Origin: Lactobacillus mulieris
GTDB taxonomy: Bacteria; Bacillota; Bacilli; Lactobacillales; Lactobacillaceae
Assembly (NCBI RefSeq): GCF_007095465.1
Contig: NZ_SDGL01000002.1
Coordinates: 1-64,000, forward strand
DNA: 64,000 nucleotides
Direction: 5' to 3'
Shown here: positions 8,120 through 51,427 of the stretch, in pieces
Layout: every line of letters begins with the position of its first letter
How positions within the stretch are numbered: position 1 is the stretch's first letter
Program-made: the position numbers and the translations under genes
Notes under the pieces: model-generated
Seen by the model: the letters and a program-made list of their open reading frames with translations, nothing else
Told to the model about the DNA's origin: nothing
Database searches by the model: none

Positions 8120-8127
8120 CAAGACGT

Positions 8128-8198
8128 TTAGGGGTGCCGTTAGGCTGAGATGATACCCATTGAACCTGGTCTAGGTAATGCTAGTGAAGGGAAAATGA
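8128..8198 (+). ncRNA. TPP riboswitch (THI element)
   Basis: The conserved blocks are all present in order: GGGGTGC (8131), GGCTGAGAT (8143), TACCCATTGAACCTG (8154) and TAGGTAATGCTAGTGAAGGGAA. This is the thiamine pyrophosphate aptamer. It directs low expression of the downstream ECF transporter genes when TPP is abundant, and marks them as thiamine- or precursor-related. Confidence 0.95.
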
Positions 8199-8214
8199 CT
8201 TTTGATTACTTAAT

Positions 8215-31858: not shown

Positions 31859-32017
31859 TAATTCACCCTCTTTATTTATAGAATTTAATCTTTTAATAAT
31901 TTTTACTTATTTTCTCATATTTAAATTAAAAAATCAAGCTTATTTTTTCATTTGGAATCGTTTACTTGAAAAACTATTTTTTAATGTGTATTATAATCTT
32001 TGAATTAAATATAAATG

Positions 32018-32130
32018 TTCTTCGGGGCAGGGTGAAATTCCCGACCGGCGGTAAAGTCCGCGACCCACGCAAGTGGTTGAATCCTAATTAAAGGTACCGA
32101 TAGTTAGAGTCTAGATGGGAGAAGATTAAT
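32018..32130 (+). ncRNA. FMN riboswitch (RFN element)
   Basis: Conserved blocks are present: TCTTCGGGGCAGGGTGAAA (32019), TTCCCGACCGGCGGTAAAG (32038), GTCCGCGACCC, and the closing GATGGGAGAAGA (32114). It senses flavin mononucleotide and controls the riboflavin genes downstream, probably through the terminator at 32201-32229. Confidence 0.97.
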
Positions 32131-50050: not shown

Positions 50051-51193
50051 TCAATCTAAAGTCTTAAATGCTTGATCTAAATCAGCTAAAATATCTTCCT
50101 TATCTTCTATTCCTACAGATAATCTAATTAAGCCATCGCTGATACCATTTTTCAAGCGGATTTCTCGCGGAATTGAGCCATGAGTCATTACTGCAGGCAC
50201 TTCAATCAAGCTTTCAATTCCACCTAAACTTTCTGCTAAAGAAATCATATGTAATCTATTAACAAATTCCTCTGCTCTATATTGATCAGCCAATTCAAAA
50301 GAAATCATAGCTCCAAAACCCTTCATCTGCTTTTTAGCAATTGAAAAACTAGGATTAGTTTCTAAACCCGGATACATAACTTTTTTAACATATTTACTAT
50401 CTAAAAGATATTTCACTACTGCTTGTGCATTATCTTCATGCACCCGCATTCTAGCACCTAATGTTTTAATCCCTCGCATCAACAGCCATGAATCATCAGG
50501 TGATAAAACCGCACCAATAGAATTTTGTAAAAAGGCTAACTGCTCAGCAATTTTTTCATTTTTAGCAACTGCTATCCCAGCCACTAAATCTGAATGACCA
50601 CCAAGATATTTAGTGCCGGAATGAACAACAATATCTGCACCTAAATCAAGGGGCTTTTGATTATATGGACTAGCAAAAGTATTATCAACAATCATTAACA
50701 CGTCATGTTTTTGAGCAATTTCTGCAATAGCTGCTAAATCTGATATTTCAAGTAAAGGATTCGTCGGTGTTTCCAAGTAAATTGCTTTGACATTGGAATT
50801 GATAGCTGCAGATACTTCATCAAGATTGCGAGTATCAACTACTGTAAAATTAAGTCCAAACCGTTTCATTACTTGATTAGCCAACCTAAAAGTGCCACCA
50901 TACACATCTTTTCCAATAATGACTTCATCACCAGCTGAAAGCAGCGAAAATACAGCATGAATTGCGGCAGACCCTGAACTAAAAGCAAATGCGGAGTTTC
51001 CATCTTCTAAATCTGCCATTAAACTTTCCAATGCTGCTCTAGTTGGATTACCAGATCTTGAATATTCCCATTTTAATTTGCTGCTTAAAAATGGCTTATG
51101 ATACGTTGAAGCCCGATAGATTGGCATTGAAACTGCCCCTGTTTCTTCATCTTCATTAATTCCGCCATGAATCAACTTACTATCAAATTTCAT
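50051..51193 (-). CDS. metC: Cystathionine beta/gamma-lyase type PLP enzyme
   Basis: 380 residues of the Cys/Met metabolism PLP family. SRSGNPTRAALE (about 48-60), PLP-binding FSSGSAAIHAV, DNTFASPY, and the lysine Schiff-base site in HSGTKYLGGHSDLVAG (about 192-207). SLGGIESLIEVPAVMTHGSIP is the family active-site end. It cleaves cystathionine, to homocysteine or cysteine depending on the subtype; the two cannot be separated by eye, so the symbol is tentative. ATG 51193 follows AGGAGGT. A Cys/Met-rich leader peptide and terminator precede it, consistent with regulation by sulfur amino acid supply. Confidence 0.9.
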   Translation of the reverse strand: MKFDSKLIHGGINEDEETGAVSMPIYRASTYHKPFLSSKLKWEYSRSGNPTRAALESLMADLEDGNSAFAFSSGSAAIHAVFSLLSAGDEVIIGKDVYGGTFRLANQVMKRFGLNFTVVDTRNLDEVSAAINSNVKAIYLETPTNPLLEISDLAAIAEIAQKHDVLMIVDNTFASPYNQKPLDLGADIVVHSGTKYLGGHSDLVAGIAVAKNEKIAEQLAFLQNSIGAVLSPDDSWLLMRGIKTLGARMRVHEDNAQAVVKYLLDSKYVKKVMYPGLETNPSFSIAKKQMKGFGAMISFELADQYRAEEFVNRLHMISLAESLGGIESLIEVPAVMTHGSIPREIRLKNGISDGLIRLSVGIEDKEDILADLDQAFKTLD

Positions 51194-51211
51194 AATTACC
51201 TCCTGAAAAAC

Positions 51212-51246
51212 AAAAAAAGACGCCAATTCATTTCTGAATTAGCGTC
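51212..51246 (-). terminator. Attenuator terminator upstream of the metC-like gene
   Basis: On the minus strand GACGCTAATTCA-GAAA-TGAATTGGCGTC followed by seven T. It ends 18 nt before the metC start codon, after the leader peptide stop, as in attenuation systems. The 5' arm can pair instead with AGCGTCA in the leader (51317-51323). Confidence 0.85.
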
Positions 51247-51277
51247 ATAGATAAAAAATGCTTACTTTTTGTGTGGA

Positions 51278-51367
51278 TTAATTTATAGCATGCCAAAAAG
51301 TGGAGCACATCATCTGTGACGCTCCACTACAACAAATATTAGCATTAATAAATGTTAAATTATTCAT
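51278..51367 (-). CDS. Cys/Met-rich leader peptide of the metC-like gene
   Basis: A 29-residue ORF with AAGGAG about 8 nt before its ATG. It begins MNNLTFINANICCSG, then carries SQMMCSTFWHAIN to the end: a Cys-Cys pair, a Met-Met pair and a third Cys in few codons. The ORF overlaps a hairpin AGTGGAGC / GCTCCACT (51299-51328) and is followed by the terminator before the sulfur amino acid gene. This layout supports transcription attenuation by ribosome stalling when Cys or Met is scarce. No homologue was searched. Confidence 0.75.
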   Translation of the reverse strand: MNNLTFINANICCSGASQMMCSTFWHAIN

Positions 51368-51398
51368 TGTTTGGCTCTCCTTAATAATTATGACCACT

Positions 51399-51427
51399 AG
51401 TTTAAACTTACTAAAAAGAAGTGTCAA
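51399..51427 (-). promoter_or_regulatory. Promoter of the metC-like leader
   Basis: On the minus strand TTGACA (51427-51422), 17-nt spacer, TAAACT (51404-51399). Transcription would start about 25 nt upstream of the leader peptide ATG. Confidence 0.7.

Follow-up and report, generated by a model that had tools for sequence, protein, structure and literature searches.

What is the role of a small, cysteine-containing open reading frame (ORF) which precedes an intrinsic terminator and a gene of the cystathionine gamma-lyase / gamma-synthase family? The question is raised by the minus strand of a 64,000-nucleotide stretch of Lactobacillus mulieris DNA (contig NZ_SDGL01000002.1, positions 1 to 64,000), referred to here, at its full length, as the window. 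In an earlier note, made without database searches, the ORF was read as a Cys/Met-rich leader peptide belonging to an attenuator. It is our conclusion that the window leader is very probably a ribosome-mediated, cysteine-specific transcription attenuator. Its elements are conserved and covary across the Lactobacillaceae, where they are associated with Cys-related genes.

The leader locus and its two folds

The features of the locus, all on the minus strand (-), are as follows.

51399..51427 (-): promoter TTGACA, 17-nt spacer, TAAACT (10/12 consensus match; the stretch is also in L. psittaci and L. jensenii)
51377..51380 (-): ribosome binding site (RBS) of the leader ORF, GGAG (from the sequence; retained in L. 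psittaci, L001, and L. jensenii, L002)
51278..51367 (-): leader peptide ORF, MNNLTFINANICCSGASQMMCSTFWHAIN followed by a stop codon (L. psittaci and L. jensenii share the peptide of the first 26 codons but not the C-terminus)
51329..51334 (-): Cys-Cys codons TGT TGT, the putative stall site (first position Cys in 88/88 distinct model-found members)
51299..51328 (-): P1 hairpin, in which AGTGGAGC (51328-51321) pairs with GCTCCACT (51306-51299) (folding; competes with the antiterminator)
51317..51323 (-): antiterminator core, leader side, AGCGTCA (folding, family pair counts)
51241..51247 (-): antiterminator core, distal side, TGACGCT, doubling as the terminator 5' arm (folding, family pair counts)
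51294..51301 (-): predicted antiterminator extension ACTTTTTG, with partner CAAAAAGT
51264..51271 (-): CAAAAAGT, the predicted partner of ACTTTTTG
51212..51246 (-): intrinsic terminator, 12-bp stem (51246-51219), GAAA loop and 7 T (folding, family pair counts)
51199..51204 (-): RBS of the lyase gene, AGGAGG (from the sequence)
50051..51193 (-): gene of the cystathionine gamma-lyase / gamma-synthase family (PF01053, by family match), the putative regulated gene

When the sequence was re-read, the leader ORF, its RBS, the Cys-Cys codons, the Met-Met codons (51313-51308, -) and the P1 pairing were all found where the earlier note had placed them. The alternative pairing of AGCGTCA with TGACGCT, which it had also proposed, exists, but these 7 bp are the core alone of a longer predicted antiterminator to which AGATGA, GTGCT and the ACTTTTTG/CAAAAAGT helix are added. 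Both of the mutually exclusive folds that it had postulated were folded and are more stable than shuffled sequences. The terminator folds at -17.7 kcal/mol (z -5.9; 0/200 shuffles as good), and the leader with the terminator 5' arm, in the absence of the 3' arm, adopts the long antiterminator at -35.7 kcal/mol (z -4.7; 0/200 shuffles). The leader with P1 folds at -22.4 kcal/mol (z -3.6; 2/200 shuffles as good). A single terminator is found between 51150 and 51600, where 0.1 are expected; the number of promoter-like matches around the leader (3 vs 2.8 in shuffles) is not above chance.

Among solved structures the best match of the downstream gene's product is 6ldo, a cystathionine gamma-lyase by name. 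None of the best 25 of 71 NCBIfam families reached a curated cut-off, which leaves lyase versus synthase undecided, and "lyase" is used here as a shorthand. A cysK/CBS relative was not detected at E<=1e-10 in one genome of the L. jensenii group (G002), and in another (G001) there is one of 31% only. This raises the possibility that the lyase of this group (G001/G002) is an orphan, the completeness of these assemblies not being known.

Conservation and covariation in the Lactobacillaceae

The promoter, leader, hairpin, terminator and both folds are retained in L. psittaci DSM 15354 (L001) and L. jensenii DSM 20557 (L002), the lyases of which are 88% identical to that of the window and the upstream DNA of which differs. 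These two close relatives are the only strong plain-DNA matches among 75 Lactobacillus genomes (E 1.2e-86 and 2.0e-73), the other matches listed being at chance level. Neither a comparison of the window leader DNA with plasmids and phages nor a pattern search of viral contigs gave a match. In L. jensenii (L002:636-2300) an Rrf2-like regulator, assigned by eye, and an alcohol-dehydrogenase-like gene lie between a GDSL-like gene and the leader; they are not at this place in the window, and are preceded by TTGACATTTCTTTTTA, a near copy of the leader's -35 region.

A more diverged case is found in genome G005, in which a lyase of 66% identity is placed behind a cysK-like gene. The leader MFNKQFTNMNTCCCGTRQLRPAIWCTLIS stands before the latter and possesses its own P1, antiterminator and terminator, all of different sequence. 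This operon (L115/L145) looks decayed, with the cysK-like gene split in two, a stop within the lyase and, by eye, a luxS-like remnant; its leader ORF is open despite this.

A covariance model built from four members (R1) matched 12 of the 75 genomes at E<=0.1. On reading, the new matches in G003, G014, G033, G039, G044 and G046 are leaders; those in G016, G024 and G035 were rejected as chance terminator matches. A second model (R2), built from nine members and including the Cys codons (TGTTG), gave nine strong matches (E<1e-24) among the 21 genomes of this set listed at E<=0.05; G045 added a tenth leader (E 5.1e-4). In 397 Lactobacillaceae genomes R2 matched at least 84 at E<=0.01, with at least 99 matches; since six candidates were scored per genome these counts are a lower bound. 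The leader was confirmed by reading in 71 of the 397. Across the order, 14 of 395 genomes were matched at E<=0.001, of which 12 were already known; the other two (G711, G752) are matches to the model alone.

The 96 loci examined comprise 90 of the 99 R2 matches and six from the R2 scan of the 75 genomes. The nine matches left out had E>=0.0019, and four of their genomes (G024, G073, G025, G023) had no visible leader. Nor was a leader seen on reading the weak matches L153, L154, L156 and L157 of the 75-genome scan, a set that leaves out L151, L155 and L158. A Cys leader is present at 90 of the 96 loci (86 with CC, four with CLC or CPC), the six in which reading revealed none being L236, L239, L240, L242, L243 and L244. 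An RBS-like motif precedes 82 of the 86 CC leaders, the background rate being 14% of random positions in these loci. Among 88 distinct members an ATG-open frame exists in the Cys frame in 87, and in the other two frames in 40 and 22.

A downstream ORF is present at 94 of the loci: 44 are cysK/CBS-like, 23 lyase, 10 ABC permease and nine HTS (metA-like). Together these four Cys-related groups account for 86 of the 94, the assignment being by annotation with one representative scanned per large group (PF00291, PF01053, PF00528 and PF04204). The remainder are two oligopeptide-binding-like ORFs and six singletons; five of the singletons have no leader, and the sixth (L164) is a wrong ORF call, a lyase being found ~1.1 kb downstream of its leader. 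The oligopeptide-binding-like proteins (L147, L234) were recognized by eye, and suggest that peptide uptake is part of the regulon. The leaders of four ABC permeases (L213, L228, L231, L233) read MNILKSKxQYM-CLC or CPC, one Cys codon of the run having been replaced. In L. paracasei ATCC 334 the gene named metA is stated to encode a serine acetyltransferase (PMC6004538), an identity which would fit the HTS group.

For the analysis of covariation 90 members were aligned, the six leaderless loci and L144, which holds N, being excluded. This alignment (A4) was fitted to P1 and the terminator only, and the antiterminator was scored upon it as 14 pairs taken from member L146. Standard pairs make up 82.5% of the antiterminator cells, compared with 72.4 +/- 0.8% in shuffled alignments and 27-51% when the partner is slid by 1-3 columns; two-sided changes occur in 119 cells, compared with 43 +/- 6. 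Pair 96-308, for example, is GC in 51 members and AU in 20. Two pairs of antiterminator helix 4 are standard in only 53% of cells. P1 and the terminator together show 92.6% standard pairs and 322 two-sided changes, but A4 had been fitted to both. The conservation check in relatives which the earlier note had suggested thus finds the leader ORF, the Cys codons and the alternative stems kept, and the stems covarying.

Turning to the peptide, the first Cys of the run is specified in all 88 distinct model-found members (TGT in 83, TGC in five), the second in 84 and the third in 81, while the residues upstream of the run are variable. Neither of the first two Cys codons falls within P1 or the antiterminator core, so that the T/C changes suggest that Cys itself is what is selected. 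The first Cys codon and the antiterminator column are 14 nt apart in 75 of 76 members; in the window the figure is 12 nt by sequence. An internal Met-Met pair is present in the window leader and its counterparts in L. psittaci and L. jensenii alone; two other pairs stand at the start of the peptide. Of the Cys/Met-rich character noted earlier, the Cys part stands and the Met part is not supported, its internal pair being restricted to the three members of the L. jensenii group; moreover, the third Cys of the window leader, which follows the Met-Met pair and had been counted with the others, is not at a conserved position.

Since R2 holds the Cys codons and its matches are biased, the regions upstream of lyase genes were tested independently of it. 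Lyase orthologues were obtained by protein search in 123 of the 397 genomes (E<=1e-150). Sixty-nine upstream regions were used. Of these, 29 belong to the 30 best-scoring places, from which L. jensenii was dropped, and 40 are among those not listed by R2, one of the latter, in G286, having been listed at another place. Under a strict rule (ATG, RBS-like motif, 12-50 amino acids, containing CC, CLC or CPC) a leader is present in 55/69 regions, and in 6/69 on the antisense strand as control. Reading adds eight leaders, six with CFC and two with CCC lacking the RBS-like motif, so that a Cys-run leader occurs in 63/69; one of the six regions without a leader is cut by a contig end. Under the strict rule 35/69 regions contain a triple of Cys; no other residue forms a triple in more than two. 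Many of these leaders are diverged, such as NCCCRTTRFWRCSAC. Those with CFC in place of CCC are L315, L321, L323, L324, L325 and L337.

The proposed switch, expression data and rival explanations

In the mechanism that we envisage the leader transcript would be divided into four segments: segment 1 is the P1 5' arm; segment 2 the P1 loop, its 3' arm and the U-rich stretch which follows; segment 3 the terminator 5' arm and the bases preceding it; and segment 4 the terminator 3' arm. With sufficient Cys-tRNA the ribosome would clear the Cys codons, allowing 1:2 (P1) and then 3:4 (the terminator) to form, and transcription would stop before the lyase gene. Were Cys-tRNA scarce, the ribosome would halt within the Cys run, ideally on the first codon, where it would cover the P1 5' arm and leave GCGUC and the downstream bases largely free. 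The 2:3 helix (the antiterminator) could then form, the terminator would be blocked and the lyase transcribed. Stalling, switching and the operation of the mechanism in the species of the window are inferred; the Cys attenuator is supported by the conserved, covarying leader and stems, and expression data from L. paracasei FAM18149, described below, are consistent with control by cysteine.

The stall was modelled in 77 members by masking a 28-nt footprint around each codon, with P1 scored in a transcript ending after P1 and the antiterminator in one ending after the terminator 5' arm; the footprint size and equilibrium folding are assumptions. With the first Cys codon in the A site the mean values are 0.23 for P1 and 0.94 for the antiterminator. 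One codon further these fall to 0.00 and 0.60, and two codons further to 0.00 and 0.31; far upstream P1 stands at 0.87. Among positions up to the P1 region, the combined state, "P1 blocked, antiterminator allowed", is highest with the first Cys (0.72), as against 0.53 one codon before and 0.60 one after. In the window itself the values are 0.00 and 0.81 at the first Cys, and 0.00 and 0.53 at the second.

The plasmid of L. paracasei FAM18149 (NZ_CP017266.1) carries a leader before cysK2-ctl1-cysE2. This leader, MMSQSMFNAINCCCRTTRFWRCSAC, stands upstream of the cysK-like gene and has the motif GGAGG. Between CGCGUUUUUGG and CUAAGGGCGCG 11 pairs can form, as counted by eye (duplex z -3.1). A Rho-independent terminator has been reported over AAGGGCGCGAAA-N16-TTTCGCGCCCTT, a palindrome attributed to Liu et al. 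2012 (PMC6004538), and we find that it is the terminator of the putative Cys attenuator in the published strain. RNA-seq of Cys-deficient versus Met-deficient cultures showed cysE2, ctl1 and cysK2 to be increased by log2 2.9, 3.2 and 3.1, i.e. ~7-9-fold, and the quantification cycle (Cq) of ctl1 was 21.4 in Cys-deficient and 25.7 in Met-deficient medium. Coverage of the 5' untranslated region (5'UTR) was high, and no regulator is named in the part of the article available (PMC6004538). The increase is repeated in PMC6200037, the title of which calls the cluster highly mobile. Sensing of Met was considered and rejected, the internal Met-Met pair not being conserved and expression of the FAM18149 operon being higher when Cys, and not Met, is missing. 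Plasmid-borne members with diverged leaders came to light through a protein search; besides that of FAM18149, leaders are carried by plasmids of L. rhamnosus Lc 705, L. fermentum DR9 and L. paracasei (pLPA4, L248). In the last of these, a plasmid of 5.6 kb, the leader and cysK-ctl-cysE make up about half of the molecule.

Three other explanations were weighed. An improbable one is that the nascent leader peptide arrests the ribosome by way of a small molecule (Cys or Met) in the exit tunnel, in which case cysteine would act as residues and not through charged tRNA. A CCCGSRLMRPT-like peptide motif does recur in many members; however, the residues that would occupy the tunnel before the Cys run are variable, the commonest being present in at most 41/87, and the stretch specifying the motif, downstream of the run, coincides in part with P1 and the antiterminator, the motif being altered in diverged members such as NCCCRTTRFWRCSAC. 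That the small ORF specifies a functional Cys-rich peptide (e.g. metal-binding), the terminator and folds being incidental, would agree with two or three adjacent Cys and a conserved ORF, but we hold it to be highly improbable: none of the ten leaders tested falls into an NCBIfam family, 86 of 94 loci precede the four Cys-related gene groups, the antiterminator pairs covary, and the length and C-terminus of the peptide vary.

Equally improbable, lastly, is control by a T-box or other tRNA- or metabolite-binding RNA with the ORF arising by chance: T-boxes are common (G001 and G002 each have 14 matches at E<=0.001, of which two exceed the cut-off) and a Cys T-box is present elsewhere in FAM18149 (PMC6004538), but there is no Rfam match at the window locus (gathering threshold only) nor, except for one microRNA match outside the leader, at 11 member loci (E<=1), and the published 5'UTR analysis in L. 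paracasei identified no T-box or S-box (PMC6004538). SAM, SMK and other Rfam riboswitches likewise gave no match at the window locus (gathering threshold) or the 11 member loci (E<=1). Elsewhere in the window Rfam recognizes an FMN riboswitch (32014-32130, +) and a TPP riboswitch (8120-8209, +).

A number of results weigh against the cysteine attenuator as set out above. In the stall scan there is a second permissive position at +13 codons (P1 0.00, antiterminator 0.84), near the stop codon in most members; it is the best position in 45 of the 77 members, and the first Cys in eight. In the window both Cys codons score below the codon that precedes them (0.02 and 1.00). Without a ribosome the equilibrium favours the antiterminator (0.75 over the 77 members; 1.00 in the window), so that the off state needs P1 to form first, a kinetic assumption. 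Two of the five covariation measures are unremarkable, 79/500 shuffles being as high for the number of pairs with two-sided changes and 59/500 for further pair types. The R2 set is biased to TGTTG, this being in the model. A strict terminator finder succeeded in 22 of 38 diverged or plasmid leaders, and in 19 of those 22 the z of the antiterminator duplex is below -2 (200 base shuffles). This test left out L328 and L351, which fall outside its leader rule, and missed the terminator of L247, which the model nevertheless aligned. As regards FAM18149, the match of R2 to its leader is weak (30.4 bits, E 8.7e-5) and its P1 differs from that of the model. The published comparison is of Cys-deficient with Met-deficient, and not Cys-replete, medium, and its authors invoke premature termination along with an antisense RNA (PMC6004538).

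Reach of the family and comparison with known systems

We consider it probable that these leaders constitute a new family of Cys leader-peptide attenuators which, in a large part of the Lactobacillaceae, is a main means of Cys control. Its targets would be biosynthesis from Met (CBS-like/lyase) and HTS-like/cysK operons, together with ABC uptake, perhaps of cystine, and perhaps also the uptake of peptides; it would travel with the mobile cysK-ctl-cysE cluster on plasmids. If this is true, a cell receiving such a plasmid gets the operon plus its own sensor. Most likely, many lactobacilli switch on Cys-supply genes by means of this leader when cysteine runs short. This would offer a mechanism for the change in the FAM18149 operon which was measured in 2018 but left unexplained (PMC6004538). 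The breakdown of Cys and Met contributes to cheese flavour (PMC6004538), and milk contains far less Cys than Met (PMC6200037). The family also adds an RNA without a relevant match in Rfam 15, and makes codon-run attenuation common in a lineage in which T-boxes are a usual answer.

The trp and his attenuators of the Proteobacteria consist of a leader ORF with repeated codons, mutually exclusive 1:2, 2:3 and 3:4 helices, and an intrinsic terminator. The lactobacilli leader is likened to them by architecture, which is the same; it would sense Cys and occurs in the Lactobacillaceae. T-boxes answer uncharged tRNA and work by antitermination. The Cys type of T-box (RF00230) differs in that no T-box match exists at the leader, where sensing, as proposed, would need a translating ribosome.

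Leader ORFs with runs of Cys codons likewise stand before sulfur amino acid genes (cys/cbs) in Actinobacteria; according to the available part of PMC1262725 no terminator was found in Mycobacterium, whereas the lactobacilli leaders have an intrinsic terminator and a covarying antiterminator. In the Rhodobacterales uORFC-8-2, located before cysS, also combines tandem Cys codons in an upstream ORF with a terminator stem and inferred ribosome stalling (PMC8632094); it differs in belonging to the Alphaproteobacteria and in preceding cysS only, the comparison being one of descriptions. His leader-peptide attenuators of Bacilli and other Firmicutes show that attenuation occurs outside the Proteobacteria and Actinobacteria, but involve histidine, different genes and different lineages (PMC2965389, PMC9413887), and a leucine-rich attenuator peptide is reported from Staphylococcus aureus (PMC5794164). 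The 5'UTR element of L. paracasei cysK2-ctl1-cysE2 contains the same palindrome as terminator, which PMC6004538 reads as the terminator of an unexplained control; the available part of that article makes no mention of a leader ORF, of P1 or of an antiterminator. Within the open-licence PMC literature, including the available parts of PMC2494555 and PMC7483736, we found no earlier description of the Cys leader family, subscription journals being outside this scope. The class of mechanism, classical attenuation, has thus long been known; it is the family and its reach in lactobacilli that appear to be new.
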